Source: an uncultured Flavobacteriaceae bacterium
GTDB lineage: Bacteria > Bacteroidota > Bacteroidia > Flavobacteriales > Flavobacteriaceae
Assembly: GCA_947502975.1 (NCBI GenBank)
Contig: CANNBV010000002.1
Coordinates: forward strand, 62,001 to 126,000
DNA: 64,000 nucleotides
Reading direction: 5' to 3'
Shown one piece after another: positions 4,932 through 58,286 of the stretch. The stretch's first letter is position 1; the number at the start of each line of letters is the position of its first letter. A program made the translations under genes and the position numbers. Under the pieces are notes generated by a model that worked only from the letters and a program-made list of their open reading frames with translations, had not been told where the DNA came from and ran no database searches.

Positions 4932-5036
4932 AAGATTTGACGGAAAACGTCTCAGGAGTTTACACTGCCTTTAGCATTTTTGTTTACACGTTCATTTTTC
5001 GTGTAAAGAGGTTGCAATCAGTCAAATCTTTCCTCT
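4932..5036 (-). ncRNA. SAM-II-type riboswitch (long-loop form) with anti-aptamer stem, metK leader
   Basis: On the minus strand the core reads AGAGG (5036-5032), GATTTGACTGATTGCA, CCTCT (5011-5007), an extra hairpin TTACACG/CGTGTAA (5006-5000 with 4990-4984), then TGCTAAAGGCAG (4976-4965). This matches the SAM-II pseudoknot order: P1, GAUUU loop, UUGCA, P1', long loop, GCUAAA. CTG...TTGC in the loop can pair with GC...CAG at the 3' end as P2. Downstream, GTCAAATCTT (4941-4932) is a perfect 10-base complement of AAGATTTGAC (5030-5021), which overlaps the conserved loop, so it can form a competing anti-aptamer stem about 20 bases before the metK start. A second copy of GTGTAAAC (4965-4958) offers another alternative pairing. 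Class assignment is from motif recognition, not a covariance search. Confidence 0.75.
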
Positions 5037-5146
5037 ATGATTTGTGAAGTGCAAAAGTAAAAAAAATAAGAGAAATATATGAGAATTGATTAAAAATTGA
5101 CAAAAAATATTAAGATGAGTATTTGCCTATGGTTGATGCCATATTT

Positions 5147-5323
5147 TTGGCGGATAAACCCGCGTTAGGGATTGCAGCGGCATCCTTTTGTTTTCATTGT
5201 TAAGGTAGAAAGGCTTTACCTTAATAGCTTATGATTGTGTAGTGGATTCCTGCCTGTGCAGGAATGACAAAACAAAAGATATAGCGTAAAGCCCGACCAC
5301 GCTAGAGCGTGGGAACGCCAAAA
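5147..5323 (+). repeat. Intergenic repeat family R1, copy 1
   Basis: Starts TTGGCGGATAAACCCGCGTT AGGGATTGCAGCGGCATCC and ends AAAGCCCGACC...GGGAACGCCAAAA, so the outer ends are inverted (TTGGCG/CGCCAA). Inside, CTTTTGTTTT pairs with AAAACAAAAG, and TTAAGGTA pairs with TACCTTAA. It also holds a short palindrome, ATTCCTGCCTGTGCAGGAAT, near 5255. Apart from this repeat and the metK leader, the 4913-5402 gap shows nothing coding. Confidence 0.75.
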
Positions 5324-35104: not shown

Positions 35105-35133
35105 TGATAAGCCAAGTACAAATTATTTAATAT

Positions 35134-35162
35134 ATGCACGGTTTTATCCGTGCATTTTTTTT
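35134..35162 (+). terminator. Terminator of the plus-strand sugar unit
   Basis: ATGCACGG (35134-35141), loop TTTTAT, CCGTGCAT (35148-35155) and a following T-run. It separates the sugar region from the arginine operon. From here to 35285 the sequence is very AT-rich and I see no other feature. Confidence 0.88.
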
Positions 35163-35285
35163 ATCAAAACATTAAAAAATTAAATTTTTCAAAACAAAAC
35201 CTTAAAAAAAACGAGATTTATTTAATTCTTTTTAAAAAAGTAATGGTTTTTAGGCGTTTATAAAATAAAGTCTTAGTTTTACAAC

Positions 35286-35357
35286 ATGAAAAATTTAAAA
35301 AATAAAATACGTTGTACTACCCCCGGGTTGCCCGTGCGCTTTCGCCGCCGCTTCTAA
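35286..35357 (+). CDS. Candidate arginine operon leader peptide 1 (23 aa)
   Basis: ATG-TAA frame beginning MKNLKNKIR and ending GLPVRFRRRF. Five arginines occur, four of them in the last six residues, encoded by CGC codons that are unusual in this AT-rich genome. A and T surround it, while the frame holds a GC-rich block with a CGGG-TTG-CCCG hairpin (near 35324). It lies about 300 bases upstream of the first arginine gene. Sensing of charged tRNA-Arg is inferred from composition and place. Confidence 0.55.
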   Translation: MKNLKNKIRCTTPGLPVRFRRRF

Positions 35358-35469
35358 TATCTTGATTAGTAAACCCAAAACGTAATTTTAATTTTTCAAA
35401 AAAGTGTCCAATTTTTATACCATAGCAATTCAAAATAAAGTTAATTCAATAATTAACCATAGTTGTATT

Positions 35470-35499
35470 ATGCGCCGTCGTTTTCCTCGTCGCCCGTAA
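35470..35499 (+). CDS. Candidate arginine operon leader peptide 2 (9 aa)
   Basis: ATG-TAA frame encoding MRRRFPRRP: five of nine residues are arginine, from the codons CGC CGT CGT ... CGT CGC. CCC-GTAA-GGG spans its stop codon as a small hairpin, and a larger hairpin follows at 35519-35540. It starts 120 bases before the first gene of the arginine operon. The density of arginine codons directly upstream of an arginine biosynthetic operon is hard to explain by chance and points to a leader peptide. Confidence 0.65.
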   Translation: MRRRFPRRP

Positions 35500-35518
35500 G
35501 GGTATGTATCAATTTTAT

Positions 35519-35540
35519 TGAACTAGGTGAGTCCAGTTCA
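35519..35540 (+). promoter_or_regulatory. Leader hairpin between Arg leader peptides and operon
   Basis: TGAACT (35519-35524) pairs with AGTTCA (35535-35540), with an inner GG/CC pairing around TGAGT. No T-run follows, so it is not an obvious intrinsic terminator; it may be part of an attenuation or translational-control fold. Confidence 0.45.
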
Positions 35541-35588
35541 GCATTTAAGACAAAATTAAAATCAAAGACATTATATCAAATTAGGAAA

Positions 35589-36212
35589 ATGAAGGTTGTT
35601 ATAGCCGATACATCACATATTAAATACGCACAGGATATTTGCGATACCATTGCCGAATCAGCACAGGTAAGAGGTACAGGTATTGCGAGGCGTACTCCAG
35701 AATATATTTCATCTAAAATTGAAAACGGCAACGCCGTTATTGCTTTGGATGGTGAAAAGTTTGCAGGGTTCTGTTACATTGAAAAATGGGGACATGGTAA
35801 GTTTGTAGCTAACTCAGGTTTAATTGTACATCCTGATTACAGAGGTAAAGGACTTGCAAAAAAAATTAAGCATAAGATATTTGAGCATTCTAGAACTAAA
35901 TTTCCAGATGCAAAAGTATTTAGTATTACTACTGGCTTACCAGTGATGAAAATGAATAGTGATTTGGGCTATAAGCCTGTAACGTTTTCAGAGTTAACAG
36001 ACGATCAAACGTTTTGGGATGGATGCCAAACCTGTAAGAATTATGATGTATTAACGAGAACAAACAGGAAAATGTGTTTGTGTACAGGGATGCTTTATGA
36101 TCCTAAAAAAGTTGGTAATGAAGATGCAGAACCTAAGCAGGTTAAGGAAAAAGCATTTAAAAGGTTAAAACGAATTAAACAAGCATTGTTTTTAAGAAAA
36201 GATAAAAAGTAA
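35589..36212 (+). CDS. GNAT acetyltransferase, probable first enzyme of arginine synthesis
   Basis: A 207-residue GNAT-family acyltransferase. Longer in-frame starts exist back to 35463, but they would translate through the leader region; the ATG at 35589 (MKVVIADTSHIKYAQDICDT) begins the real domain. GLIVHPDYRGKGLAKKIKHK is the acyl-CoA pyrophosphate-binding motif. A Cys-rich stretch (DGCQTCKNYDVLTRTNRKMC) follows. As the first gene of the operon, with no other obvious argA or argJ, it is a good candidate for the N-acyl-glutamate synthase, by inference from context. Confidence 0.8.
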   Translation: MKVVIADTSHIKYAQDICDTIAESAQVRGTGIARRTPEYISSKIENGNAVIALDGEKFAGFCYIEKWGHGKFVANSGLIVHPDYRGKGLAKKIKHKIFEHSRTKFPDAKVFSITTGLPVMKMNSDLGYKPVTFSELTDDQTFWDGCQTCKNYDVLTRTNRKMCLCTGMLYDPKKVGNEDAEPKQVKEKAFKRLKRIKQALFLRKDKK

Positions 36213-36256: not shown

Positions 36257-37432
36257 ATGAAAAAATTAGTAATAGCATACAGTGGAGGATTAGATACATC
36301 GTATTGTGCGGTAAGTTTATCAAAAGAATATGACGTACATGCTGTAAGTGTAAATACAGGCGGATTTACTAAAGAAGAAATTAGTCATATTGAGAGTAAT
36401 GCCTATAAAATGGGAGTTTCTACCTATAAAAATATTGATGCAGTAGCTACATTTTATCAAAAAGTAGTGAAGTATTTAATTTTTGGAAACGTACTAAAAA
36501 ATAATACATATCCCTTGTCTGTTAGTGCTGAGCGTATTATTCAAGCTATTGAAATTATTGAATATGCCAAAAGTATTGATGCGGAATATATAGCTCATGG
36601 AAGTACAGGAGCAGGAAATGACCAAGTTAGGTTTGATATGATTTTTCAAACGTTGGCACCAGGAATTAAGATTATTACACCTATTAGAGATGAAAAATTA
36701 ACGAGGCAACAAGAGATTGATTACTTAAAAGAAAATGGTATTGAAGCGTCTTGGGAAAAAGCGAAATATTCAATTAACAAAGGGCTTTGGGGAACAAGTG
36801 TTGGAGGAGAAGAAACCTTAACTTCTGAAAAAGCTTTGCCTAGTGAAGCATACCCTTCGCAATTAGAAAAAGAAGGCAGTGAAAAAGTAACATTGACTTT
36901 TAAAAATGGTGAGTTTGTGGCACTAAATGGTGAAGAAAACGCTCCAGAAGTTAATATTGAAAAACTGAATAATATAGCTTCGGCCTACGCTATTGGTAGA
37001 GATATTCATGTGGGAGATACCATTGTAGGTATTAAAGGAAGAGTTGGTTTTGAAGCTGCTGCAGCTCTAATAACTGTGAAAGCGCATCACTTACTAGAGA
37101 AGCATACTTTGACCAAATGGCAATTACAGCATAAAGAATATTTGTCTAGTTTTTATGGGATGCATTTACATGAAGGGCAATATCTAGATCCAGTGATGCG
37201 AAATATAGAAGCGTTTTTACAAAGTAGCCAAGATATGGTTTCTGGTGATGTAACTGTAACATTACAACCTTATCATTTCTCTTTAGATGGTATATCATCT
37301 GATCATGATTTAATGAGCGCGAAATTTGGAAGCTATGGTGAAGAAAACAGAGCTTGGACTGCCGATGACGCTAAAGGATTTATTAAAATCCTTGGTAACC
37401 AGAATAAAATATACCAACAAGTAAACTCGTAA
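36257..37432 (+). CDS. argG: Argininosuccinate synthase
   Basis: Joins citrulline and aspartate using ATP. VIAYSGGLDTSYCAV at the N-terminus is the ATP pyrophosphatase loop; AHGSTGAGNDQVRFD (about residues 114-128) and KYSINKGLWGTSVGGEETL are family segments contacting citrulline and aspartate. The 391-residue length is normal. It is unusual that argG comes near the front of the operon and argH at the end, with nine genes between. argC follows after three bases. Confidence 0.97.
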   Translation: MKKLVIAYSGGLDTSYCAVSLSKEYDVHAVSVNTGGFTKEEISHIESNAYKMGVSTYKNIDAVATFYQKVVKYLIFGNVLKNNTYPLSVSAERIIQAIEIIEYAKSIDAEYIAHGSTGAGNDQVRFDMIFQTLAPGIKIITPIRDEKLTRQQEIDYLKENGIEASWEKAKYSINKGLWGTSVGGEETLTSEKALPSEAYPSQLEKEGSEKVTLTFKNGEFVALNGEENAPEVNIEKLNNIASAYAIGRDIHVGDTIVGIKGRVGFEAAAALITVKAHHLLEKHTLTKWQLQHKEYLSSFYGMHLHEGQYLDPVMRNIEAFLQSSQDMVSGDVTVTLQPYHFSLDGISSDHDLMSAKFGSYGEENRAWTADDAKGFIKILGNQNKIYQQVNS

Positions 37433-37435
37433 ACT

Positions 37436-38413
37436 ATGGTAAAAGTAGGAATTATAGGAGGTGCAGGCTATACAGCTGGTGAGCTCATTAGATTATTGAT
37501 TCATCATCCTGAAACTGAAATAGATTTTGTGTATAGTACATCGAATGCTGGAAATAACATTAGCAAAGTACACCAAGATTTAATTGGTAGTTTAGATTTG
37601 AAGTTTACAGATACCATTAATCCAAATATTGACGTATTGTTTCTATGTTTAGGACATGGAAATTCTGTAAAGTTTTTGTCGGCTAATACATTTTCTGAAA
37701 CAACTAAAATTATTGATTTAGGCAATGATTTTAGGTTGGAAGCTGATAAGATTTTTGAAGGCAAAACGTTTGTATATGGTTTGCCAGAATTGAATAAAGA
37801 GGCCATTGTAAACGCAAATTATATTGCAAATCCAGGATGTTTTGCAACAGCTATTCAATTAGGATTATTGCCGTTAGCAGATGCTGGTTTGATTAGCAAA
37901 GATGTTCATGTGAATGCGGTTACTGGAGCTACAGGAGCAGGTACATCATTATCTGCAACAACGCATTATACATGGCGAGACAACAATTTTTCGTATTACA
38001 AACCATTTACGCATCAGCATTTAGGAGAGATCAACCAGTCGGTTAATCAGCTACAAAACGATTTTTCTTCGGAAATTATTTTTATGCCAAATAGAGGTAA
38101 TTTTTCTAGAGGCATTTTTGCAACAATTTATACTGATTTTGAAGGATCTGTTGAAGAAGCAAAAACTATTTATAAGTCATTTTATAAGGATGCTAAATTT
38201 ACGTTTATATCTGACGATTTTTTACATATGAAGCAGGTAGTAAATACTAGTAAATGTTTGGTGCATTTGCATAAACATAATGGTAAGTTATTAATTACGA
38301 GTACCATTGATAATTTATTGAAAGGCGCTTCTGGACAGGCGATTCAGAATATGAATTTGATGTTTGGTATTGAAGAAACAACAGGATTAGGATTAAAAGG
38401 GACGTATTTTTAA
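37436..38413 (+). CDS. argC: N-acetyl-gamma-glutamyl-phosphate reductase
   Basis: Reduces the N-acyl-glutamyl phosphate to the semialdehyde with NADPH. VGIIGGAGYTAGELIRLLIH is the dinucleotide-binding motif and IANPGCFATAIQLGLLPL holds the catalytic cysteine (about residue 136). KPFTHQHLGEINQ provides the conserved histidine region. 325 residues, normal length. Given the succinylornithine-type carbamoyltransferase in the same operon, the true acyl group may be succinyl rather than acetyl. Confidence 0.96.
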   Translation: MVKVGIIGGAGYTAGELIRLLIHHPETEIDFVYSTSNAGNNISKVHQDLIGSLDLKFTDTINPNIDVLFLCLGHGNSVKFLSANTFSETTKIIDLGNDFRLEADKIFEGKTFVYGLPELNKEAIVNANYIANPGCFATAIQLGLLPLADAGLISKDVHVNAVTGATGAGTSLSATTHYTWRDNNFSYYKPFTHQHLGEINQSVNQLQNDFSSEIIFMPNRGNFSRGIFATIYTDFEGSVEEAKTIYKSFYKDAKFTFISDDFLHMKQVVNTSKCLVHLHKHNGKLLITSTIDNLLKGASGQAIQNMNLMFGIEETTGLGLKGTYF

Positions 38414-38415
38414 GA

Positions 38416-38530
38416 AGCCCCACCTAACCTCCCCGAAAGGGAGGAATATAGTACGTAGTAGTACTTTGATAGTATTAAAATAAAAAGTAATAGTAAGCGT
38501 TCCCCTCCTTTGGAGGGGTTAGGGGAGGCT
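38416..38530. repeat. Long palindromic intergenic element between argC and proC
   Basis: AGCCCCACCTAACCTCCCC near the left end is the inverted counterpart of GGAGGGGTTAGGGGAGGCT at the right end. Each arm also folds on itself (CCTCCC-CGAAA-GGGAGG at 38428-38444; CCCCTCC-TTT-GGAGGGG at 38502-38518). It is inside an operon, so it may act as an RNA processing or stability element, or simply be a small mobile palindrome. Confidence 0.65.
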
Positions 38531-38538
38531 GATTATGA

Positions 38539-38630
38539 GTGGCGCGTTAGGGATTGCAGTGGAAAGCCCACAGCGACGTAGGAGCGAGGACTTGGAACGT
38601 AAAGCCCGACCCCTTGAGGGTAACGCCATA
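38539..38630 (+). repeat. Intergenic repeat family R1, copy 3
   Basis: GTGGCGCGTTAGGGATTGCA at the left and AAAGCCCGACCCCTTGAGGG then TAACGCCAT at the right. The inner part differs from other copies. It lies 20 bases before proC, directly after the palindromic element. Confidence 0.75.
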
Positions 38631-38650
38631 AAAATTAAAACAAAGAAATT

Positions 38651-39445
38651 ATGAAAATAGCGATTATTGGAACGGGAAATTTAGGGAGTTCGATTGCGAA
38701 AGGACTTATTAAAAATAAATCGTTTACGTCGTTGTACTTGAGTGATAAAAACACGAGTGCGGTGAATGAATTTGTCGACGAAGATTATGTAACGATTACA
38801 AATAATAATGCTGCTGCGGTTGAACATAGTGATGTTGTGATTTTTGCGTTGCAGCCGAGGCATATTGAAAATGTGCTAAAGGAAGTAGAGTCTTTGGTAA
38901 CAGATGATCATGTGGTGATGTCGGTGGCAGCAGGGTACTCAATTGCAAAGATTGAAAGTATTCTGGGTGCCGAGAAGCATATTATTCGCGTGATGCCAAA
39001 TACGGCAATTTCTATTGGAAAATCTATGACGTGTTTGTCTGCAAATGATGTTGGACAGCTAAAGATTGAATTGGCGAAAACCATATTTAATCAGTTAGGG
39101 ACTACCATGGTAATTCCTGAGGAACAGATACAGGCGGCAACCGTTATTTGTGCCAGTGGTATCGCTTTTTGGATGCGTTTGGTGCGTGCTACAACTCAAG
39201 GTGCTATTCAGCTTGGTTTTGAAGCTGAAGAAGCACATGAATTGGCTTTGCAAACCTGCTATGGTGCAGCTAGTTTATTAAAAGAATCTGGCAGACATCC
39301 AGAGGCTGAAATTGATAGAGTAACCACACCAAGTGGTTGTACTATTGAAGGTTTAAATGAAATGGAGCATCAAGGACTGAGTTCGTCATTGATAAAAGGA
39401 ATTAATGCTTCGTTTGAGAAAATTAATCAAATTAAAAAGAGTTAG
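38651..39445 (+). CDS. proC: Pyrroline-5-carboxylate reductase
   Basis: Last step of proline synthesis: NAD(P)H-dependent reduction of pyrroline-5-carboxylate. MKIAIIGTGNLGSSIAKGLI is the Rossmann motif; IRVMPNTAISIGKSMT and the C-terminal VTTPSGCTIEGLNEMEHQGL are family signatures. 264 residues. Its presence inside the arginine operon, with proA and proB further down, makes one transcript serve both glutamate-derived pathways. argD starts two bases after its stop. Confidence 0.95.
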   Translation: MKIAIIGTGNLGSSIAKGLIKNKSFTSLYLSDKNTSAVNEFVDEDYVTITNNNAAAVEHSDVVIFALQPRHIENVLKEVESLVTDDHVVMSVAAGYSIAKIESILGAEKHIIRVMPNTAISIGKSMTCLSANDVGQLKIELAKTIFNQLGTTMVIPEEQIQAATVICASGIAFWMRLVRATTQGAIQLGFEAEEAHELALQTCYGAASLLKESGRHPEAEIDRVTTPSGCTIEGLNEMEHQGLSSSLIKGINASFEKINQIKKS

Positions 39446-39447
39446 AG

Positions 39448-40593
39448 ATGCCATTATTTGACGTTTATCCATTATACAATGTAACACCAGTTTCGGGAAA
39501 AGGCATTCATGTTTACGATGACACTGGTGTAGAATATTTAGACCTTTACGGAGGGCATGCTGTAATTTCCATTGGGCATGCACATTCTAATTATGTTAAA
39601 GCAGTAACGCAGCAAGTTTCGCAGCTTGGGTTTTATTCGAATGCGGTACAAAATCCGTTACAAAGCCAATTAGCAGATAAATTAGAAACACTTTCTGGTT
39701 GTAAAGGCTATGAGTTGTTTTTAATAAACTCTGGCGCTGAAGCCAATGAGAATGCTTTAAAGTTAGCTTCTTTTAAAACGGGCAAAAAACGTGTTGTAGC
39801 TTTTAGCAACGGGTTTCATGGACGAACATCGGCTGCTGTTGTGGCGACTGATAATAAAAATATCATAGCGCCTATTAACGCGCAGCAAGAGGTGACAATT
39901 TTGCCATTAAATGATGTTGAAGGTGTAAGAGTCGAACTCGAAAAAGGAGATGTTTGTGCTGTGATTGTTGAGTTTATTCAAGGTGTTGGCGGTTTAGATC
40001 AAGGTGCTACAGAGTTTTTTGAAGCTGTAGATAAATTGTGCAAAGCAAATAACACGATGTTTATTGCTGATGAAGTGCAATCGGGTTATGGACGTTCGGG
40101 ACAATTTTTTGCATTTCAACATTATGATGTAACGCCCGATATTATTTCGATAGCGAAGGGTATGGGGAATGGATTTCCTATTGGAGGCATATTGATTCAT
40201 CCTGATATTCAATCTAAATATGGAATGTTAGGAACAACTTTTGGCGGAAATCATCTAGCGTGTGCTGCTGGTTTAGCAGTTTTAAATACGATTGAAGAAG
40301 AGGATTTAATAGCGAATGTGAATGCCATGGGTGCCTATTTTATTGAAAAAGCAAAAGCGATACCAGAAGTAAAAGCTATTAAAGGTAGAGGCTTAATGAT
40401 AGGTTTAGAATTTGATTTTGAAGTTGGTGACCTACGCAAAGATTTGATTTACAATTATAAAGTATTTACGGGAGGCGCAGCTAATAAAAAACTATTGAGA
40501 ATATTGCCACCTTTAAATATTGAGAAACAGCATATTGATCAGTTTTTTGAGGCTTTGGAAAAGGCTTTGACATATGCATTAGTTGAAAAATAA
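39448..40593 (+). CDS. argD: Acetylornithine (succinylornithine) aminotransferase
   Basis: PLP enzyme of the class III aminotransferases that converts the N-acyl-glutamate semialdehyde to N-acyl-ornithine. LINSGAEANENALKLA, FSNGFHGRTSAAVVAT and IADEVQSGYGRSG are class III landmarks; ISIAKGMGNGFPIGG contains the Schiff-base lysine (about residue 237). 381 residues. The operon lacks any other ornithine aminotransferase. Specificity between acetyl and succinyl intermediates cannot be read here. Confidence 0.94.
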   Translation: MPLFDVYPLYNVTPVSGKGIHVYDDTGVEYLDLYGGHAVISIGHAHSNYVKAVTQQVSQLGFYSNAVQNPLQSQLADKLETLSGCKGYELFLINSGAEANENALKLASFKTGKKRVVAFSNGFHGRTSAAVVATDNKNIIAPINAQQEVTILPLNDVEGVRVELEKGDVCAVIVEFIQGVGGLDQGATEFFEAVDKLCKANNTMFIADEVQSGYGRSGQFFAFQHYDVTPDIISIAKGMGNGFPIGGILIHPDIQSKYGMLGTTFGGNHLACAAGLAVLNTIEEEDLIANVNAMGAYFIEKAKAIPEVKAIKGRGLMIGLEFDFEVGDLRKDLIYNYKVFTGGAANKKLLRILPPLNIEKQHIDQFFEALEKALTYALVEK

Positions 40594-40603
40594 GCGTATT
40601 AAA

Positions 40604-41050
40604 ATGACGTATAGAAAAGCTAAACTAGAAGATCTTGAAGCAATAGCTGAATTATTTAATGCTTACAGAGTCTTTTATAGAAAAGATGCTGATATTGAAG
40701 GTGCAAAAGCATTTGTATTAGAAAGAATAACACATCAAGATTCTGAAATATTTGTAGCAGAAACTACAGAAAAAAATCTTGCTGGATTTGTACAGCTTTA
40801 TCCGTTATTTTCTTCTACAAGAATGAAAAAACTATGGCTTTTAAATGATTTGTTTGTGAATTCAGATTATAGAGGCAAAGGCATTTCAGTCGGTTTAATT
40901 GAAGAGGCTAAAACATTGGTTAAAACAACAAATGCTTGCGGTATGTTTTTAGAAACTGAAAAGTCTAATACAATTGGCAATAATTTGTATCCAAAAACGG
41001 GTTTTGTTTTGAATGAAGGATCAAATTATTATGAGTGGAATATTAATTAA
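40604..41050 (+). CDS. GNAT family N-acetyltransferase
   Basis: A 148-residue GNAT protein; the ATG at 40604 (MTYRKAKLEDLEAIAELFNA) was chosen over a TTG seven codons upstream that overlaps argD. LFVNSDYRGKGISVGLIEEA is the acyl-CoA-binding motif A. It has no recognised substrate. It lies inside the arginine/proline operon nine bases before proA, so a role near arginine metabolism is possible, but it could also be an unrelated passenger. Confidence 0.82.
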   Translation: MTYRKAKLEDLEAIAELFNAYRVFYRKDADIEGAKAFVLERITHQDSEIFVAETTEKNLAGFVQLYPLFSSTRMKKLWLLNDLFVNSDYRGKGISVGLIEEAKTLVKTTNACGMFLETEKSNTIGNNLYPKTGFVLNEGSNYYEWNIN

Positions 41051-41058
41051 AAATTAAA

Positions 41059-42252
41059 ATGAACACATTACTATCCATAGAAAAAAGAAATGCTGTTTTA
41101 TTAAAAATGGCAGTGCTTTTAGAGCAAGAACGTCAAGCGATAATTGCCGTTAATAAAGTGGACTTAGATAGTTATTCTGGCGATGATATTTCTATGTTCG
41201 ACCGTTTAAAAGTAGACGATACAAAAGTTGATGAGATGATTAAAGCGGTGACACATTTAGCATCTCAAGACGATCCTGTTGGTGTAGAACGCTTTAGTTT
41301 TAAACACGACAATGGTATGCAGGTATATAATAAAACAGCGTCGTTTGGCACGGTGCTGATTATTTACGAATCGCGCCCAGATGTTACTGTTGAGGCTGCA
41401 GGTATTGCGTTTAAATCTGGCAACAAGATATTACTAAAAGGCGGCAAAGAATCCTTGCGTTCTAATCTTAAGATTGTGGAGTTATGGCACCAAGCTTTAA
41501 GGGAAAAGGATGCATCAACCGATTGGGTGGAGTATTTACAATTTAATAGAACAGAAACTCAGGCGTTTCTCGAGAAACCAACCCAGAAGGTAGATTTAAT
41601 TGTACCTCGAGGTGGAGAACGTTTAATTGCTTTTGTAAAACAACATGCTACCTGTCCAGTAATCATCAGTGGACGCGGGAACAATTTTGTGTATGTTCAT
41701 AAAGAAGCTGATTTAGATATTGCTGTAGATGTTATCATGAATGGGAAGTCTAAAATATCGGCTTGTAATGCGGTGGATAAAGTGTTGATTGATGAAAACC
41801 TTCCAAATAAAGACGAGTTTATAAAAACTTTAATTTCAAAATTAAAGGAATTTAAGATTGAAGTGTTAGGAGATGCAACCATTTCAAAATCTTGTGATTT
41901 AGAGATGATTACATCTGATGATATTTGGTATGAAGAGTTTTTAGATTATAAAATTCTTATTGGTGAAATTGGATCTAACCAAGAAACCATTGCAATGATC
42001 AATACCTATTCTGGGGGGCATTCCTCTTCCATTATTACAACGAATCAAGCTGAAGCGCAATTATTTATGGAAAATGTAGATACTGCTGCGGTTTACCATA
42101 ATGCATCAACTCGATTTACAGATGGTGGACAATTAGGTTTAGGAGGAGAATTAGCCATAAGTACAGATAAATTACACCAACGCGGACCTATAGGATTACA
42201 ACATTTGGTGACAAATAAATGGTATGTTCATGGCAATGGACAAATACGTTAA
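41059..42252 (+). CDS. proA: Glutamate-5-semialdehyde dehydrogenase (gamma-glutamyl phosphate reductase)
   Basis: Reduces gamma-glutamyl phosphate in proline synthesis. ASFGTVLIIYESRPDVTVEA and GNKILLKGGKESLRSN are family signatures of the ALDH-fold enzyme, and KSKISACNAVDKVLID carries the catalytic cysteine. 397 residues, standard length. proB starts two bases after its stop codon, the reverse of the common proB-proA order. Confidence 0.95.
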   Translation: MNTLLSIEKRNAVLLKMAVLLEQERQAIIAVNKVDLDSYSGDDISMFDRLKVDDTKVDEMIKAVTHLASQDDPVGVERFSFKHDNGMQVYNKTASFGTVLIIYESRPDVTVEAAGIAFKSGNKILLKGGKESLRSNLKIVELWHQALREKDASTDWVEYLQFNRTETQAFLEKPTQKVDLIVPRGGERLIAFVKQHATCPVIISGRGNNFVYVHKEADLDIAVDVIMNGKSKISACNAVDKVLIDENLPNKDEFIKTLISKLKEFKIEVLGDATISKSCDLEMITSDDIWYEEFLDYKILIGEIGSNQETIAMINTYSGGHSSSIITTNQAEAQLFMENVDTAAVYHNASTRFTDGGQLGLGGELAISTDKLHQRGPIGLQHLVTNKWYVHGNGQIR

Positions 42253-42254
42253 GC

Positions 42255-43019
42255 ATGCAAAAGAAAAAGCGCATATTATTAAAAGTTGGGTCGAACACCT
42301 TAACAAAGGAAACAGATAATATTTCTAGAGGTAAAATTGAAGATATAGCAAGTCAGATTGCACAACTTCAAGATACTTGCGAATTTATTATTGTGAGTTC
42401 TGGTGCTATTGCTGTGGCAAAACAGTTTGTGAAATTAGAAAGTCAGCGTAAAGAACTTTTTGTAAAACAAGCCTTGGCATCTATCGGTCAGCCACATTTG
42501 ATAAGAATTTATCAAGAGATTTTTAGGGAATATGGTTTATTGAGTTCACAATGTTTACTGTCCTATTCAGATTTTGAAAAAGAAGATAGCAGAACCAATA
42601 TCATGAATACGATTAATGTACTGGTAAACAACAGTTATATTCCAATCATTAATGAAAATGATACAGTTGCTACAGATGAAATTAAGTTTGGTGACAACGA
42701 TAAATTAGGTGCGTTAACAGCATCATTGCTTGATGTAGATTTATTTATTATTGCTACGAATACTAATGGCATTTATACCAAAAGTTCTATTGAAAGAGGA
42801 AAGCCTGAAACCATTGAAACAGTAACAGATTTTGAACAATTAAATGCAGAGGTAATGAGTTCCAAATCATCACATGGAAGCGGTGGCATGCAAAGTAAGA
42901 TTGAAGCAGCTGAGGTGACACAAAAAGCTAACATAGAAACATGGATTCTAAACGGTTTAGAAGATAATTTCATTTTGAATGCAATAGAAAATAAAGTGCC
43001 GTTTACTAAAATAACATAA
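42255..43019 (+). CDS. proB: Glutamate 5-kinase (short form without PUA domain)
   Basis: Phosphorylates glutamate for proline synthesis. The ATG at 42255 (MQKKKRILLKVGSNTLTKET) was preferred to an in-frame GTG-region start overlapping proA. LLKVGSNTLT, IIVSSGAIAVAK, INENDTVATDEIKFGDNDKL and HGSGGMQSKIEAAE are amino-acid-kinase motifs. At 254 residues it has the kinase domain only and lacks the C-terminal PUA domain of the E. coli enzyme, which is seen in other short forms. Confidence 0.94.
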   Translation: MQKKKRILLKVGSNTLTKETDNISRGKIEDIASQIAQLQDTCEFIIVSSGAIAVAKQFVKLESQRKELFVKQALASIGQPHLIRIYQEIFREYGLLSSQCLLSYSDFEKEDSRTNIMNTINVLVNNSYIPIINENDTVATDEIKFGDNDKLGALTASLLDVDLFIIATNTNGIYTKSSIERGKPETIETVTDFEQLNAEVMSSKSSHGSGGMQSKIEAAEVTQKANIETWILNGLEDNFILNAIENKVPFTKIT

Positions 43020-43036
43020 TAATGAAGTATGATTTT

Positions 43037-43064
43037 GTCATTCATAGCGAAGCGAAGAATCTCA
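43037..43064. repeat. Short dispersed palindromic motif (GTCATTC..AGCGAAGCGAAGAATCTCA)
   Basis: GTCATTCATAGCGAAGCGAAGAATCTCA in the 65-base gap between proB and the carbamoyltransferase gene. It resembles the short CCTGAG..GTCGAAGG and GGAATGAC-type sequences at 7270, 5250 and 58414, which look like pieces of one family of intergenic sequences. Confidence 0.4.
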
Positions 43065-43084
43065 ATCATAGTAATATTTAAACA

Positions 43085-44023
43085 ATGAAACATTACACAT
43101 CTATACACGATATAGACGATATCAATTCTTGGATTGAAGAGGCCAAGACTTTAAAGGCTAATGCACTAAAACATATTGAGCTAGGAAAAAACAAAACCAT
43201 CGGTTTGTTATTTTTTAATTCCAGCTTACGCACGCGTTTAAGCACTCAAAAGGCAGCTTTAAATTTAGGAATGAATCCTATTGTGATGAACGTTTCTGGT
43301 GATGCTTGGGGTATTGAGTTTGGAGATGGTACCGTTATGGATGGTAACACTGCTGAACATATAAAAGAGGCAGCTGCTGTAGTATCCCAATATTGCGATG
43401 TTATTGCGGTTAGAGCATTTCCAACGTTAACAGATAAAGCCAAAGATGAAAGTGAGCAAGTGATGCATGCGTTTAAAACATACGCTTCAGTTCCTATTGT
43501 AAATATGGAAAGCGCTACAGGACATCCGCTTCAAGGATTAACCGATGCTTTGACTATTTCAGAACATGCAAAAGTAGCAAAACCAAAAGTGGTGTTGAGT
43601 TGGGCGCCTCATGTAAAAGCCTTGCCGCATGCGGTAGCAAATAGTTTTGTACAGGTGATGCAAAAAATGGATGTGGAATTTGTAATTGCTAACCCAGAAG
43701 GTTATAATTTAAATCCTGAAATTACTAAGGATACACCTATATATCACAATCAAGAAGAAGCTTTTAAGGATGCCGATTTTGTTTATACAAAGAATTGGAG
43801 CTCTTATGAAGACTATGGAAAAGTAAATAATACCGACCCTAATTGGATGATTACTAAAGCTAAACTTGGTGATGCCAAATTCATGCATTGTTTACCTGTT
43901 AGACGAAATGTAGTTGTTGAAGATGCTGTTTTAGATACAGACAGTTCTATAGTGATTGAACAAGCAAATAATAGAACCTATGCAGCACAATTAGTGCTCA
44001 AAAAGATTTTAGAAAATGTCTAA
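43085..44023 (+). CDS. argF': N-succinylornithine/N-acetylornithine carbamoyltransferase
   Basis: Carbamoyl-phosphate-dependent enzyme that acts on N-acylated ornithine, as known in Bacteroides and Xanthomonas. FNSSLRTRLSTQKAALNLGM is the carbamoyl-phosphate loop in the variant found in this subgroup rather than STRT, and FMHCLPVRRNVVVEDAV is the ornithine-side motif. In the loop GTVMDGNTAEHIKEA the residue before Glu-His is Ala. In published work a Glu here marks acetylornithine enzymes and small residues or Pro favour succinylornithine, so succinylornithine is the likelier substrate. This alignment was made by eye. It overlaps argB by 8 bases. Confidence 0.9.
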   Translation: MKHYTSIHDIDDINSWIEEAKTLKANALKHIELGKNKTIGLLFFNSSLRTRLSTQKAALNLGMNPIVMNVSGDAWGIEFGDGTVMDGNTAEHIKEAAAVVSQYCDVIAVRAFPTLTDKAKDESEQVMHAFKTYASVPIVNMESATGHPLQGLTDALTISEHAKVAKPKVVLSWAPHVKALPHAVANSFVQVMQKMDVEFVIANPEGYNLNPEITKDTPIYHNQEEAFKDADFVYTKNWSSYEDYGKVNNTDPNWMITKAKLGDAKFMHCLPVRRNVVVEDAVLDTDSSIVIEQANNRTYAAQLVLKKILENV

Positions 44024-44798
44024 AGAAAATTTATCAATCGTTAAAATAGGTGGCAATGTTATCGAAGATACAGAAGCTTTAGCCAAATTTTTAGAAGGCT
44101 TTTCAAAATTAAAAGGCAAAAAGATTTTAGTACATGGTGGCGGGAAACGTGCAACTCACATTGCATCTAAACTCGGTATTGAGTCTAACATGATTAATGG
44201 AAGGCGTATTACTGATGCGGATACTTTAGAAGTGATTACGATGGTTTATGGTGGACTGGTTAATAAAAATATTGTAGCTAAATTACAAGGTTTAAATACT
44301 GATGCGATAGGCCTAACGGGGGCTGATATTAATAGTATTTATTCAGAAAAGCGCCCTGTAAAAGAAATTGATTATGGTTTTGTAGGAGATGTGAAAAAAG
44401 TAAATCATCAATCTATAAATAAATTGATTGAAGCTGATTTTACACCAGTGTTTTGTGCGATTACCCATGATAAAAACGGACAATTATTCAATACGAATGC
44501 AGATACAATTGCTTCTGAATTGGCAATAGGACTCTCAAAATTGTATCATGTAGAATTGTATTATTGCTTTGAAAAAAACGGTGTATTGCTATCAGTTGAG
44601 AATGATGATTCTGTGATTGAATATATGGACTCTCCAACCTACCAAGGCTTAAAACAAAAAGGGACATTTCATGATGGGATGTTGCCTAAATTAGAAAATT
44701 GTTTTTATGCGATAGAGCATGGAGTTTCAAGAGTTTTTATTGGGAATCCATCCGTAATAAGTAATAAAAATCAAAAGTTTACTACCTTGTATTTATGA
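44016..44798 (+). CDS. argB: N-acetylglutamate kinase
   Basis: Phosphorylates the N-acyl-glutamate in the second step of arginine synthesis. LSIVKIGGNVIEDTEALAKF and LVHGGGKRATHIASKLGI are amino-acid-kinase nucleotide and substrate loops; FNTNADTIASELAIGLSKLY and GMLPKLENCFYAIEHGVSRV are C-terminal family features. 260 residues. It overlaps the gene before it and argE after it (4 bases), indicating tight translational coupling. Confidence 0.94.
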   Translation: MSKENLSIVKIGGNVIEDTEALAKFLEGFSKLKGKKILVHGGGKRATHIASKLGIESNMINGRRITDADTLEVITMVYGGLVNKNIVAKLQGLNTDAIGLTGADINSIYSEKRPVKEIDYGFVGDVKKVNHQSINKLIEADFTPVFCAITHDKNGQLFNTNADTIASELAIGLSKLYHVELYYCFEKNGVLLSVENDDSVIEYMDSPTYQGLKQKGTFHDGMLPKLENCFYAIEHGVSRVFIGNPSVISNKNQKFTTLYL

Positions 44799-45859
44799 TA
44801 GAGCAACTAACAGAAGACGCAATTTTACTTTTAAAGCAATTGATTGAGACACAATCATTTTCTTCAGAAGAAGATGAAACTGCAGCGCATATAGAAGATT
44901 GGTTTAAGCGCTATCATATCGATTACAAACGTACCAAAAATAACGTGTGGGCAGTCAATAAACATTTTGAAGAAGGTAAGCCGACCTTGTTGTTGAATTC
45001 CCACCATGATACGGTGAAACCTAATTCTGCGTATACCAAAGATCCGTTTAAAGCTATTGAAGAAGAAGGCAAATTATTTGGCTTAGGCAGTAATGATGCA
45101 GGCGGTTGTTTAGTATCGCTAATCGCTACCTTTACGCATTATTACAATCACGAGAATTTAAAATATAATTTAGTTATTGTTGCTTCCGCAGAAGAAGAGA
45201 GCAGCGGGCCAAATGGATTAAATAGCATGCTATCTGTAATACCTAAAGTAGATGTGGCTATCGTTGGAGAACCAACTCTAATGAATTTAGCAGTTGCAGA
45301 AAAAGGCTTAGTCGTTTTTGATGCTGTTTTAAGAGGCACACCAAGTCATGCGGCACACCCTAACGATGATAATGTGATTTACAAATCAATAGAAGCTTTA
45401 CAATGGTTTAAAGATTATAACTTTGAAAAAAGTTCTAAAGCTTTAGGTGATGTAAAGCTAACTGTAAGTCAAATAAGCGCGGGGAAACAACATAATGCAG
45501 TTCCTGCGGATTTAAGTTTGGTAATAGATGTTCGTGTAAATGACGCTTATACTAATAAAGAAGTTGCAGATATTTTACAAAAAGAAGCACCAGTTACAAG
45601 TATTACTCCGCGTAGCTTACGACTAAACTCATCATCAATTCCAATAGACCATGAATTGGTAAAAGCGGGAATTGCTATGGGAAGAACAACTTACGGTTCA
45701 CCTACATTATCAGATCAAGCAGTGCTGTCTTGTCCGAGTTTAAAATTAGGCCCTGGAGATAGTACGCGATCGCATTCGGCAGATGAATTTATTTATTTAA
45801 ATGAAATAGAAGAAGGTATTAAAATATATGTTGAATTGTTGAAGCGGGTAATTTCTTAA
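44795..45859 (+). CDS. argE: M20 family N-acyl-ornithine/N-acyl-citrulline deacylase
   Basis: Zinc peptidase-fold amidohydrolase, 354 residues. LLNSHHDTVKPNSAYTKDP and LGSNDAGGCLVSLIATF give metal ligands, IVASAEEESSGPNG the catalytic glutamate pair, and IVGEPTLMNLAVAEKGLVVF the next ligand region. LKLGPGDSTRSHSADEFIYL is the C-terminal histidine segment. With an N-acylornithine carbamoyltransferase in the operon, the true substrate is probably N-acyl-citrulline rather than N-acyl-ornithine. This is pathway inference, not a sequence-level reading. Confidence 0.9.
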   Translation: MIEQLTEDAILLLKQLIETQSFSSEEDETAAHIEDWFKRYHIDYKRTKNNVWAVNKHFEEGKPTLLLNSHHDTVKPNSAYTKDPFKAIEEEGKLFGLGSNDAGGCLVSLIATFTHYYNHENLKYNLVIVASAEEESSGPNGLNSMLSVIPKVDVAIVGEPTLMNLAVAEKGLVVFDAVLRGTPSHAAHPNDDNVIYKSIEALQWFKDYNFEKSSKALGDVKLTVSQISAGKQHNAVPADLSLVIDVRVNDAYTNKEVADILQKEAPVTSITPRSLRLNSSSIPIDHELVKAGIAMGRTTYGSPTLSDQAVLSCPSLKLGPGDSTRSHSADEFIYLNEIEEGIKIYVELLKRVIS

Positions 45860-45962
45860 AAAGTGGAATTGCTTATTTGTGTATTCGTTTAATCGAACCA
45901 GAAATAAACAAAACTTTTCAACTAAACAAATCAACGCATAAACACATAAACATTTTCAAGAA

Positions 45963-47243
45963 ATGAAACTCTGGGACAAAGGCATATCAATAGATAAAAA
46001 AATAGAAAATTTCACCGTTGGTAATGATCGTGAAATAGATATCCATATAGCAAAATATGATGTAATTGCATCTAAAGCACATGCAAAGATGTTAGAAAGT
46101 ATCGGAATTTTAACTTCTGATGAGTTACATCAACTGTTGGGAGGTCTGGATGTTTTGGCTAGCCAAATAGAAGACCAAACTTTTGAAATTGATGCCCAAT
46201 TCGAAGATGTACATTCCAAAATTGAATTTGAATTAACGAAATCTTTAGGCGATGTTGGAAAAAAAATCCACACAGCACGCTCTAGAAACGATCAGGTTTT
46301 AGTGGCGTGTCACTTATATTATAAAGAGAATTTAAAAGGGATTCAAACTAAAACAAAAACCTTATTTGATACGCTTTTAGATTTAGCAGAAACCTACAAG
46401 GACAAAGTTTTACCAGGATATACACACTTGCAAGTTGCTATGCCGTCATCATTCGGATTATGGTTTTCAGCCTATGCGGAATTAATGATTGATGATGTTT
46501 ACATGTTAAACGCTGCATTAAAAACGGTGGATCAAAATCCATTAGGTTCAGCAGCAGGTTATGGAAGCTCATTCCCCATTGATAGGGAGTTGACAACCAA
46601 AGAAATGCAATTTGCTACTTTAAAATATAATGTAGTAGCTGCTCAAATGGGACGAGGTAAAAATGAGCGAACTATAGCTGCAGCTTTGGGTGGTTTAAGT
46701 AATACTCTAGCACGTTTTGCTATGGATACCTGTTTGTATATGAGTCAGAATTTTGGGTTTATCTCTTTTCCAGATGAGTTAACTACAGGCAGTAGTATTA
46801 TGCCTCATAAAAAGAATCCTGATGTATTTGAATTGATTCGTGGTAAATGCAATAAAATCCAAGCACTACAATCAGAAATGGTATTAATTACCAATAATTT
46901 GCCAAGTGGATATCATAGGGATTTTCAATTATTAAAAGAAAATATGATTGCTGCTTTTGAAGAGTTAAAGGATATTCTTGATATTTTCAATTATTCTATT
47001 CAACAAATTATTGTGAAAGACATTGACATTCATGATGATAAATATAAGTATCTCTTTACAGTTGATAATATTAATACTTTGGTTGTAGAAGGACAAAGTT
47101 TTAGAGAAGCTTATCAAAAAATTGGAGGTCAAGTACAAGATGGTACCTATGTACCAGATACATCAAAAGAGCATACACATGTTGGGAGTATTCATAATTT
47201 GTGTTTGGATAAGATTCGCGATAAGTTTCCTAAATCATCTTAA
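45963..47243 (+). CDS. argH: Argininosuccinate lyase
   Basis: Splits argininosuccinate to arginine and fumarate. TGSSIMPHKKNPDVFELIRG is the fumarase/lyase superfamily signature with the catalytic serine loop; IHTARSRNDQVLVACHLYYK and GYTHLQVAMPSSFGLWFSAY are other conserved regions. 426 residues, slightly short of the typical 450-470. Last gene of the operon, after a 103-base gap with no clear feature. It ends 21 bases from a convergent gene. Confidence 0.96.
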   Translation: MKLWDKGISIDKKIENFTVGNDREIDIHIAKYDVIASKAHAKMLESIGILTSDELHQLLGGLDVLASQIEDQTFEIDAQFEDVHSKIEFELTKSLGDVGKKIHTARSRNDQVLVACHLYYKENLKGIQTKTKTLFDTLLDLAETYKDKVLPGYTHLQVAMPSSFGLWFSAYAELMIDDVYMLNAALKTVDQNPLGSAAGYGSSFPIDRELTTKEMQFATLKYNVVAAQMGRGKNERTIAAALGGLSNTLARFAMDTCLYMSQNFGFISFPDELTTGSSIMPHKKNPDVFELIRGKCNKIQALQSEMVLITNNLPSGYHRDFQLLKENMIAAFEELKDILDIFNYSIQQIIVKDIDIHDDKYKYLFTVDNINTLVVEGQSFREAYQKIGGQVQDGTYVPDTSKEHTHVGSIHNLCLDKIRDKFPKSS

Positions 47244-52177: not shown

Positions 52178-52300
52178 TTTTTTGGGCGCAACCCAAAGGG
52201 TCGGGCTTTCCACTATATCTTTTTGGTATTATGGCTTCGAGAACCTCAGCCAACAATACCAAAAAGGATGCCGTTGCAATCCCTTGTGCGGGTGTATTTG
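52178..52300 (-). repeat. Intergenic repeat family R1, copy 4 (inverted orientation)
   Basis: Read on the minus strand it has GCACAAGGGATTGCAACGGC near its left end and GAAAGCCCGACCCTTTGGGT at its right, ending GCGCCCAAAAAA. The inner arms CTTTTTGGTATT and AATACCAAAAAG are perfect complements. It shares inner sequence (GGCTGAGGTTCTCGAAGCC) with copy 5. Confidence 0.75.
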
Positions 52301-56741: not shown

Positions 56742-56771
56742 CATTCACAAAGTTAAAACACTTATTGAAAT

Positions 56772-56891
56772 GTTATCAAGAAAGGTGGAGGGATTAGACC
56801 CCGTGAAGCCTTAGCAACCCTTTAAACTTATTAAAGAAGGTGCTAAATTCTACTTAAACTCGATTCATTTATCGGTGTTTGGATAGATAAC
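56772..56891 (+). ncRNA. SAM-I (S-box) riboswitch
   Basis: Closing stem GTTATC (56772-56777) / GATAAC (56886-56891). Inside are AAAGGTGGAGGGATTAGACC, CGTGAAGCC, TTAGCAACC, then the P3 hairpin CCTTTAA/TTAAAG, AAGGTGCTAAATTC, and a P4 hairpin with CGAT-TCATTT-ATCG. These are the conserved S-box elements in the correct order. It precedes the sulfhydrylase gene by 120 bases. A small hairpin (GCTTC-GTTA-GAAGC, 56952-56965) followed by T-rich sequence may be its expression platform. It should reduce methionine gene expression when SAM is abundant. Confidence 0.95.
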
Positions 56892-57011
56892 CCCAAAAAA
56901 ATTGCTTCAGGTAATTTTAATACTTCTTCATAACATTTTTCTATTAAGTACGCTTCGTTAGAAGCTTATTTGGCTTTTGGTTTAATTTATTAATTCAAAA
57001 ATATTAGAAAA

Positions 57012-58286
57012 ATGAGCGATCAAAAATTAGCAACAAATGCATTACATGCAGGGCACGATGTAACAACAAATGGTGGCGCAAGAGCAGTACCAATTTATCA
57101 AACGACGTCTTACGTGTTCAATAATTCTGACCATGCGGCAAACCTATTTTCATTACAAGAATTAGGGTTTATCTATACACGTTTAAATAATCCAACCAAT
57201 CAAATTTTACAAGAGCGTTTGGCAGCGGTTGAAGGCGGCATTGGTGCTGTAGTATTTGCTTCTGGTACAGCGGCAATCTCAACAGGATTATTAACACTTT
57301 TAAAATCGGGTGACCATATTGTAGCTTCAAGTAGTTTGTATGGCGGCACCTATAATTTATTAAGTGTTACACTTCCAAGATTAGGCATTACAACTACGTT
57401 TGTAGATGCATCAAATCCTGATAATTTTGCAGAGGCTGTACAAGATAATACCAGAGCATTCTTTGTAGAATCTTTAGGAAACCCTAAATTGGATGTGTTA
57501 GATTTAGAGGCTATTGCTGAACATTCAAAAGCAGCTGGTGTGCCATTTATAGTAGATAATACTGTAGCAACACCTGCATTGTTGAATCCGATTAAGCATG
57601 GGGCGAATATTGTAATTCACTCGCTAACAAAATATATTGGCGGACAAGGAACGTCTTTAGGAGGTGCCATTATTGATGCAGGGACTTTTAATTGGGCAAA
57701 CGGTAAATTTCCAGAGTTTACAGAACCTTCAGCTGGTTATCACGGTTTAAAATATCATGAAGCCTTAGGTGCAGCATCTTATACTTTTAAATTAATTTTG
57801 GAAGGTTTAAGAGATTTTGGAGGTGCTATGAGTCCGACTAACGCTTTCAACATCATCCAAGGTTTAGAAACATTACCTGTTAGGATAAAGCAACACAGTG
57901 AAAATGCGTTGGAATTAGCAACATGGTTAGAAGCGCAAGATGAAGTGGCTTGGGTAAATTATCCTGGATTAGAAAGTAGTAAGTATAATGCGTTGGCTAA
58001 AAAGTATTTACCAAAAGGCCAAAGCGGTATTGTTACATTTGGACATAAAGGTGGTTTTGATGCAGCAAAAACTATAGCAGATGAAACTCAAATATTTTCT
58101 TTGTTGGCTAATATTGGTGATACAAAATCATTGATTATTCATCCTTCAAGTACAACACATCAGCAATTGGATGAAGCGGAACAAGCTTCGGCTGGAGTTT
58201 CTACAGACTTAATTAGATTGTCTGTTGGTATTGAAGATATAGAGGATTTAAAAGCAGATTTAAAACAAGCGTTTGCAAAGATATAA
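57012..58286 (+). CDS. metY: O-acetylhomoserine sulfhydrylase (O-acetylhomoserine aminocarboxypropyltransferase)
   Basis: PLP enzyme of the Cys/Met metabolism family, 424 residues, making homocysteine from O-acetylhomoserine and sulfide. VPIYQTTSYVFNNSDHAANL and YTRLNNPTNQILQERLAAVE are family landmarks; VIHSLTKYIGGQGTSLGGAI holds the Schiff-base lysine (about residue 206). The length and NWANGKFPEFTEPSAGYHGL insertion fit the MetY subgroup rather than cystathionine synthases. It is controlled by the SAM-I riboswitch and followed by the fused acetyltransferase/kinase/dehydrogenase gene. Confidence 0.93.
   Translation: MSDQKLATNALHAGHDVTTNGGARAVPIYQTTSYVFNNSDHAANLFSLQELGFIYTRLNNPTNQILQERLAAVEGGIGAVVFASGTAAISTGLLTLLKSGDHIVASSSLYGGTYNLLSVTLPRLGITTTFVDASNPDNFAEAVQDNTRAFFVESLGNPKLDVLDLEAIAEHSKAAGVPFIVDNTVATPALLNPIKHGANIVIHSLTKYIGGQGTSLGGAIIDAGTFNWANGKFPEFTEPSAGYHGLKYHEALGAASYTFKLILEGLRDFGGAMSPTNAFNIIQGLETLPVRIKQHSENALELATWLEAQDEVAWVNYPGLESSKYNALAKKYLPKGQSGIVTFGHKGGFDAAKTIADETQIFSLLANIGDTKSLIIHPSSTTHQQLDEAEQASAGVSTDLIRLSVGIEDIEDLKADLKQAFAKI

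Follow-up and report, generated by a model that had tools for sequence, protein, structure and literature searches.

Arginine-rich leader frames and a conserved RNA hairpin element ahead of a flavobacterial arginine operon: a candidate attenuator

The operon and its leader frames

The window discussed here, meaning the whole stretch of 64,000 nucleotides that was analysed, carries a putative operon on its forward strand. The first gene of the operon (35589..36212) encodes a GNAT-family acetyltransferase (PF00583, 4e-08). It is followed by argG, which encodes argininosuccinate synthase (36257..37432; PF00764, 2.6e-39). Open reading frames in the same direction fill 37436..47243 in the order argC, proC, argD, a second GNAT gene, proA, proB, a carbamoyltransferase gene, argB, an argE-like gene and an argH-like gene. 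In this part, only the second GNAT and the carbamoyltransferase were checked with Pfam; the other names are what we take these sequences to be. The gap of 237 nt between argC and proC (38414-38650) contains inverted CCTCC/GGAGG repeats, and no leader was found there by eye.

Two short arginine-rich frames had been noticed ahead of the operon in an earlier, sequence-only reading, and both are present on the forward strand. Leader 1 (MKNLKNKIRCTTPGLPVRFRRRF, 35286..35357) consists of 23 codons from the ATG at 35286 to the TAA at 35357, and its sequence includes the arginine-codon cluster CGC TTT CGC CGC CGC at 35337..35351. After an AT-rich spacer of 46 nt comes leader 2, whose arginine-rich end, MRRRFPRRP (35470..35499), closes with the TAA at 35499. 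This second frame was originally taken to begin at the ATG of MRRRFPRRP. Among 45 close two-leader relatives in an alignment, GTG or TTG occupies the column of window position 35404 in 39, and ATG occupies the column of 35470 in 30. For this reason leader 2 probably spans 35404..35499 from a GTG, with 31 codons (VSNFYTIAIQNKVNSIINHSCIMRRRFPRRP), and the ATG is probably internal. On this alignment, leader 2 is longer than first thought and has a weak start codon in the window.

The remark that clusters of CGC are out of character for this genome agrees with the codon counts. In 11 genes of the window, arginine is encoded by AGA 40 times, CGT 27, CGA 13, AGG 12, CGC 9 and CGG once. CGC and CGT together supply 550 of the 683 arginine codons of leader 1 (137 matches) and 686 of the 796 of leader 2 (176 matches). 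Searched against NCBIfam, the leader peptides had no match up to E 1.

A -7-like box, TAGTTTTA, lies at 35274..35281 on the forward strand and ends 4 nt before the leader-1 ATG. Boxes of the form TAnnTTT[GA] lie no more than 25 nt before the start of leader 1 in 110 of 137 loci, compared with a mean of 9.0 and a maximum of 17 for random 25-nt windows. The spacing from box to start codon is 4 nt in 89 of the 137 loci and 5 nt in 16; the strict form TAHHTTTG at 4-5 nt is present in only 19, and the window has TAGTTTTA. According to the accessible text of a study of F. johnsoniae, the -7 element of probable promoters lies 4-5 nt from the transcription start site, its third and fourth positions are almost never G, and transcripts are mostly leadered (PMC6847099). 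Because the box is 4 nt away and the F. johnsoniae spacing is 4-5 nt, transcription is predicted to start on the A of the leader-1 ATG or beside it, which would make leader 1 leaderless. The position of the leader region would fit an attenuator, between a putative promoter (a box match only) and the first gene.

Elsewhere in the window, a SAM-II riboswitch (4961-5041, reverse strand) precedes a metK-looking frame (3659-4912, reverse strand), and a SAM (S-box) riboswitch (56770-56893, forward strand) lies 5' of the frame at 57012-58286. Two Flavo-1 RNAs are located at 5154-5302 (forward strand) and 52195-52297 (reverse strand), the first of them upstream of an ilvD-like frame (5571). A scan of the window for other homopolymeric leader frames returned one unconvincing match.

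The GNAT gene that opens the operon was found in 197 of 299 genomes of the family. The 150 upstream regions that were collected reduced to 128 unique ones, and 80 further regions contributed 79 new ones, for a total of 207 loci; 47 of the 197 GNAT-positive genomes were left out of the upstream-region set. Leaders were recognized with a filter on start and end windows, length, and the presence of at least 3 arginines among the last 13 residues. The filter was chosen post hoc, after inspection of the data, and was applied identically to ten dinucleotide-shuffled sets.

Leader 1 passes this filter in 111 of the 128 unique regions, against a mean of 3.0 per 128 in the shuffled sets. Leader 2 passes in 100 of the 128, against a mean of 0.7. 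Of the further 79 loci, 76 have a leader 2 that passes and 26 a leader 1 that does. The other 53 of these 79 have no filter-passing leader 1 and represent a single-leader form, which also occurs in the Maribacter loci L097, L099, L104 and L109. The leader-1 total of 137 is slightly overcounted, as some passes in single-leader loci (for example L236 and L275) resemble the end of the upstream gene. The 28 of 128 regions in which leader 2 fails are of several kinds. Several have Polaribacter-type frames that continue beyond the hairpin, some finish with only two arginine codons (L017, L024), and L010, L028 and L029 look eroded, degenerate or replaced.

Both frames carry a coding signal. In independent close pairs, compared with a null that forbids nonsense, 141 of 379 changes in leader 1 are synonymous (null 111.2 ± 8.7; reached in 0 of 300 nulls; 46 pairs), as are 178 of 568 in leader 2 (null 152.3 ± 9.9; reached in 1 of 300; 41 pairs). 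Within the last 13 codons of leader 1 (n = 137), the reading frame holds 566 arginine codons and the two alternative frames hold 50 and 111; for leader 2 (n = 176) the figures are 737, 234 and 50. In both cases the filter itself demands in-frame arginine. At the leader-2 start, which in relatives lies about 185 nt upstream of the GNAT gene, ATG, TTG and GTG interchange, being used in 81, 49 and 46 of the 176 matches.

An alignment of the upstream regions of relatives had been proposed as a check on the leaders. It shows that arginine-codon runs and start codons are conserved while the peptide bodies vary, and the lack of conservation named in advance as a reason to abandon the leaders did not appear. 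The idea of arginine-rich leaders is thereby supported, and such leaders precede GNAT-argG family-wide. What has to be revised is the start of leader 2 and the number of leaders: many relatives have a single one, which makes the tandem arrangement one version among others.

A fusion of leader 2 to the GNAT gene by frameshifting was also considered. In the window, the frame of the GNAT gene does extend upstream without a stop (249 codons). The fusion was rejected since the spacing between the motif and the ATG does not stay constant modulo 3, and open-frame lengths range from 201 to 253 in the 150 loci listed.

Conserved hairpins and their distribution

Three hairpins are associated with leader 2. 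H0 (GTTAATT-CAAT-AATTAAC, 35440..35457, forward strand, as are the others) lies within the body of the leader. H1 (GCCC-GTAA-GGGT, 35492..35503) holds the leader-2 stop codon in its loop, and the final two arginine codons of the leader, CGT CGC (35488..35493), overlap it. H2 (GAACTAGGTGAGTCCAGTTC, 35520..35539) has conserved inner pairs and a UGNGU loop. The sequence-only reading had suggested hairpins at CCC-GTAA-GGG (35492-35503), at 35519-35540 and at CGGG-TTG-CCCG in leader 1. The first two correspond to H1 and H2 and are conserved, and the last is absent from an RNAalifold prediction on 45 relatives. H0, with strong covariation, is an addition to that set.

Two alignments were used, A1 with 78 of 122 loci and A2 with 70 sequences (72 selected from 104 two-leader loci, minus the off-type L150 and L102). 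In A2, 91.6% of the cells of the structure made up of H0, H1 and the inner part of H2 can pair. Changes on both sides of a pair number 64, compared with 22.2 ± 3.4 in shuffled and at most 15 in slid controls. All 64 belong to H0, in which six of the seven pairs change on both sides. H1 is nearly invariant, with 97.5% of its cells paired in the 70 sequences and zero both-side changes.

The core of H2, [AT]G[GA]TGNGT[TC]C, is present in 199 of the 207 unique loci. Of the eight that this expression misses, L082 and L267 each differ from it by a single base, and L007 has a degenerate form. A compensatory change from GG/CC to GA/UC within the core is seen in 3 loci. The outer arms of H2 form at least 4 of 5 pairs in 121 of 122 loci, compared with a mean of 107 and a maximum of 113 when 3' arms were swapped 200 times. 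The element is retained where the position of the leader stop shifts.

A possible alternative pairing, CGCC-GGUG, would join arginine codons to the H2 core and is a candidate for the mutually exclusive antiterminator fold of his and trp attenuators. RNAalifold predicts it on A1, and also for leader 1 on the 45 relatives, where H2 is not predicted. On A2 the same program predicts H1 and the inner H2, with no H0. The CGCC-GGUG pairing is nearly invariant and is broken in the 3 GA/UC loci; no covariation was found between the third base of the penultimate arginine codon and the N of the loop.

A model of H1 and H2, called R1, was built from 78 sequences; it has only 4 pairs and is mostly sequence-driven. 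R1 matches 178 of the 299 family genomes, once in each, a count that is partly circular because loci of the family trained the model. The GNAT gene is present in 176 of these 178 genomes, a linkage partly built in for the same reason. Two genomes, G084 and G152, contain the RNA element but gave no GNAT match at E 1e-30. No R1 match was obtained in 21 of the 197 GNAT-positive family genomes, and 100 genomes have neither. In the genome of the window itself R1 finds a single copy, also when matches as weak as E 10 are admitted.

Among 395 genomes drawn from across the class, strong R1 matches were obtained in 9 genomes of the family (E 4e-7 or better). Besides the window's own, all 8 adjoin GNAT-argG. 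A further 14 genomes, of other families in the class, gave weak matches (E 0.004 to 0.1) that were treated as chance, with no GNAT or argG match in loci of up to about 3 kb. In Rfam 15, no covariance model reached its gathering score in the leader, where one chance-level match (E 2.5) fell within 35250-35640.

R1 had no match in five genomes of one genus, g128, which is presumably Flavobacterium-like. Eight loci of this genus (L188-L195) have a different leader, M...SR...TSPEVR, with few arginine codons and with CGG codons, and with a consensus TACTTTTG box 4-5 nt before the ATG. The g128 leader seems closer to an arrest peptide than to a codon run. Its peptide is conserved, TSPEVR standing close to the end, and a hairpin ACTTC-TCCC-GAAGT was seen as well.

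Arginine-rich leaders followed by a small hairpin were recognized by eye in five loci outside the family, three of f79 (L197, L199, L201), one of f80 (L205) and one of f83 (L206). Their peptides end in RRRPVRV, RRPLGV, RRPLWVLN, RRRLRA and similar sequences. The hairpin loop is TTACGTA in L197, L199, L201 and L206, which belong to two other families of the order (f79 and f83). In these four loci, also by eye, the loop sequence complements a GCGU(A) stretch where the leader ends. No clear U-run was seen after the hairpins of the five loci, and L197 continues with TTATTTC. In L196, L198, L200 and L202-L204, from other families, a quick filter found no such leader or an unconvincing one.

The proposed mechanism and its rivals

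The observation from sequence that the leader has no evident U-run terminator was borne out. A scan of 35105-35650 found no terminator in the leader, its one terminator-like site (35134-35155) being upstream of leader 1, and a U-run follows H2 in only 5 of 199 loci. As a positive control, the hisG leader of the same genome (locus L176, about 1188-1302) encodes MNITQVHHHFYICSQAK and then has a classical intrinsic terminator of 12 pairs (1273-1302). With no such terminator found in the arg leader, the output probably depends on a factor, and there is room for Rho or translational control, the two options of the sequence-only reading.

A gene for Rho is present in the genome. The ArgR family (PF02863) was found in 0 of 100 family genomes, the window's own included, and in 8 of 14 control genomes. 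After H2 the frequency of C is 0.155 and that of G 0.073, compared with 0.134 and 0.140 in a control region. This excess of C over G may reflect a Rho site, and it is also compatible with low-G start regions. Occlusion of the GNAT start was rejected as an output, as masking makes no difference to its predicted accessibility: in the first 120 of the 207 loci having a CGNCGCCC match, predicted openness is 0.467 when the RNA is free and 0.476 when a ribosome footprint is masked.

The favoured explanation is that the leader is a non-classical attenuator which senses arginine codons through the ribosomes that read it, possibly with a Rho-linked output. Taken as a whole this is probable. The codon-sensing part is held with high confidence, and Rho as the output is a tentative proposal, short of an even chance. 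Sensing of codons with a factor-dependent output is preferred because no terminator was found, the predicted GNAT start does not depend on the mask, ArgR was not found and Rho is present. The attenuator is further supported by the conserved arginine-codon runs with variable bodies, the synonymous excess, the covarying H0 and conserved H1 and H2, the linkage to the operon, the single copy in the window's own genome and the classical hisG leader of that genome.

Stalling, a response to arginine and a role for Rho are what we infer from these features. Transcription would begin at or next to the leader-1 ATG. Ribosomes would translate leader 1 and then the 31 codons of leader 2, both of which finish in clusters of CGC and CGT. 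H0 would probably make RNA polymerase pause, such that the ribosome keeps pace. When charged arginine tRNA is scarce, the ribosome would stall on the arginine codons; positioned on the last of these, and with a footprint of the expected size, it would cover the whole of H1 and prevent its folding. When arginine is plentiful, the ribosome would reach the stop codon in the H1 loop and depart, and H1 and H2 would fold together. This choice would decide whether transcription proceeds into GNAT-argG. The stalled ribosome might shield the leader from Rho, or it might give a factor access to the conserved H2 loop. Several points count against this scheme. H2 is outside the footprint of the leader-2 ribosome, which would leave H1 as the one hairpin to be switched directly, a small one that has no both-side changes. 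The 28 loci that fail the leader-2 filter, the 21 GNAT-positive genomes with no R1 match and the different leader of g128 weigh against it too.

A different output is assumed if translation of the leader alters RNA folding that either prevents initiation at the GNAT gene or uncovers a site for an RNase, thus controlling translation or RNA stability. Such control has a precedent with two arginine codons in the accessible account of Salmonella orf34-speF (PMC6386406), and it accords with the scan that found no terminator. Predicted openness of the GNAT start, however, hardly shifts under the mask in the 120 loci, and this explanation is rather unlikely. It is also conceivable that H1 and H2 bind arginine or a protein directly, with the leader peptides incidental or merely setting the folding. 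Conservation of the H2 loop and core is in its favour, as is retention of the element where the leader stop moves. Such a direct sensor leaves the conserved arginine-codon runs of two separate frames unexplained, one of which finishes about 135 nt before H1; moreover, the element has no Rfam match and no expression platform was found. We regard it as decidedly improbable.

Arrest by the nascent peptide is rated slightly lower still. Here leader 2, ending in RRP-stop, would bind free arginine inside the ribosome and arrest as TnaC does with tryptophan, the codon run being secondary. RRP before the stop is indeed common, and TnaC also ends in proline. A TnaC-type leader would have a conserved peptide with a fixed stop, and what was found is variable leader-2 bodies and shifted stops: Polaribacter-type and several other frames continue past the proline (RPLG, RRPLG, RRPLGCFIF) and keep H1, which itself accounts for the proline codon CCC. 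Finally, the RNA structure alone may be conserved and the arginine-rich frames a by-product of GC-rich stems. H1 does overlap the final arginine codons and H0 does lie in the body of leader 2, but the arginine runs of leader 1 are outside all three hairpins. The in-frame excess of arginine given above, with its dependence on the filter, the synonymous excess in both leaders and the use of ATG, GTG or TTG as alternative start codons also argue for translated frames, which makes a structure-only origin very improbable indeed.

A wider and rather doubtful generalization can be sketched. A class of terminator-free attenuators might exist in which ribosomes stalled by starvation gate a module of GCCC-N4-GGGU and a UGNGU-loop hairpin, the module serving as a binding or antitermination site for a factor, Rho or NusG for example. 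The first sensor frame would be leaderless and begin at +1, the system would replace ArgR as the arginine sensor of Flavobacteriaceae, and the TTACGTA loops would be swapped versions of the module.

Flavobacteriaceae seemingly lack ArgR, and the family-wide element gives a clear prediction at the level of codons that can be tested. If true, attenuation would operate without an intrinsic terminator in a phylum whose rules of translation start differ from those of E. coli, and one sensor frame would seem to start at the first base of its mRNA. The H1-H2 module, having no Rfam match, could seed an Rfam entry.

Comparison with known systems

No arg leader of this kind was found in the literature searched (open main texts), nor was a description of how arginine synthesis is tuned in Flavobacteriaceae. 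As far as seen, what appears to be new is the arg case with its tandem form, the element made up of H0, H1 and H2, and a sensor frame predicted to be leaderless. What is already known, from the accessible parts of the sources cited below, is that arginine-sensing upstream frames exist elsewhere and that leader-peptide attenuation has been noted in a flavobacterium.

Flavobacterium psychrophilum, the species concerned, belongs to the same bacterial family as the source of the window. Clues to leader-peptide attenuation have been described upstream of its amino-acid operons, and the genes named there as having conserved structured 5' regions include pheA and hisG; arg is not mentioned in that passage (PMC9723704).

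The classical model for such a system is his and trp attenuation, in which a short leader frame rich in codons for the product amino acid precedes a biosynthetic operon and hairpins lie both in the leader and after it. The arg leader shares these features. It differs in having a hairpin with a conserved loop instead of a U-run terminator, in having two leaders in many species, and in that leader 1 is predicted to be leaderless. The hisG leader of the same genome (MNITQVHHHFYICSQAK) is of the same general type and does have a terminator, unlike the arg leader.

An example for control of an operon without an intrinsic terminator is E. coli tnaC, where a ribosome stalled beside a Rho site takes this role. 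TnaC is an arrest peptide that responds to free tryptophan, whereas the body and stop position of the arg leader vary.

Arginine codons are read by upstream frames in two further systems. In Salmonella orf34-speF, an upstream frame with two consecutive arginine codons senses arginine and Rho is involved; the system differs in controlling an ornithine decarboxylase gene, in belonging to enterobacteria and in using one frame, and the likeness is drawn from the description in the accessible text (PMC6386406). In Staphylococcus aureus rbfL, according to the accessible text, an upstream frame with arginine codons likewise slows ribosomes under arginine shortage, although it uses the rare codons AGA and AGG, blocks initiation of a transcription factor gene, and turns limitation into repression (PMC13009471).
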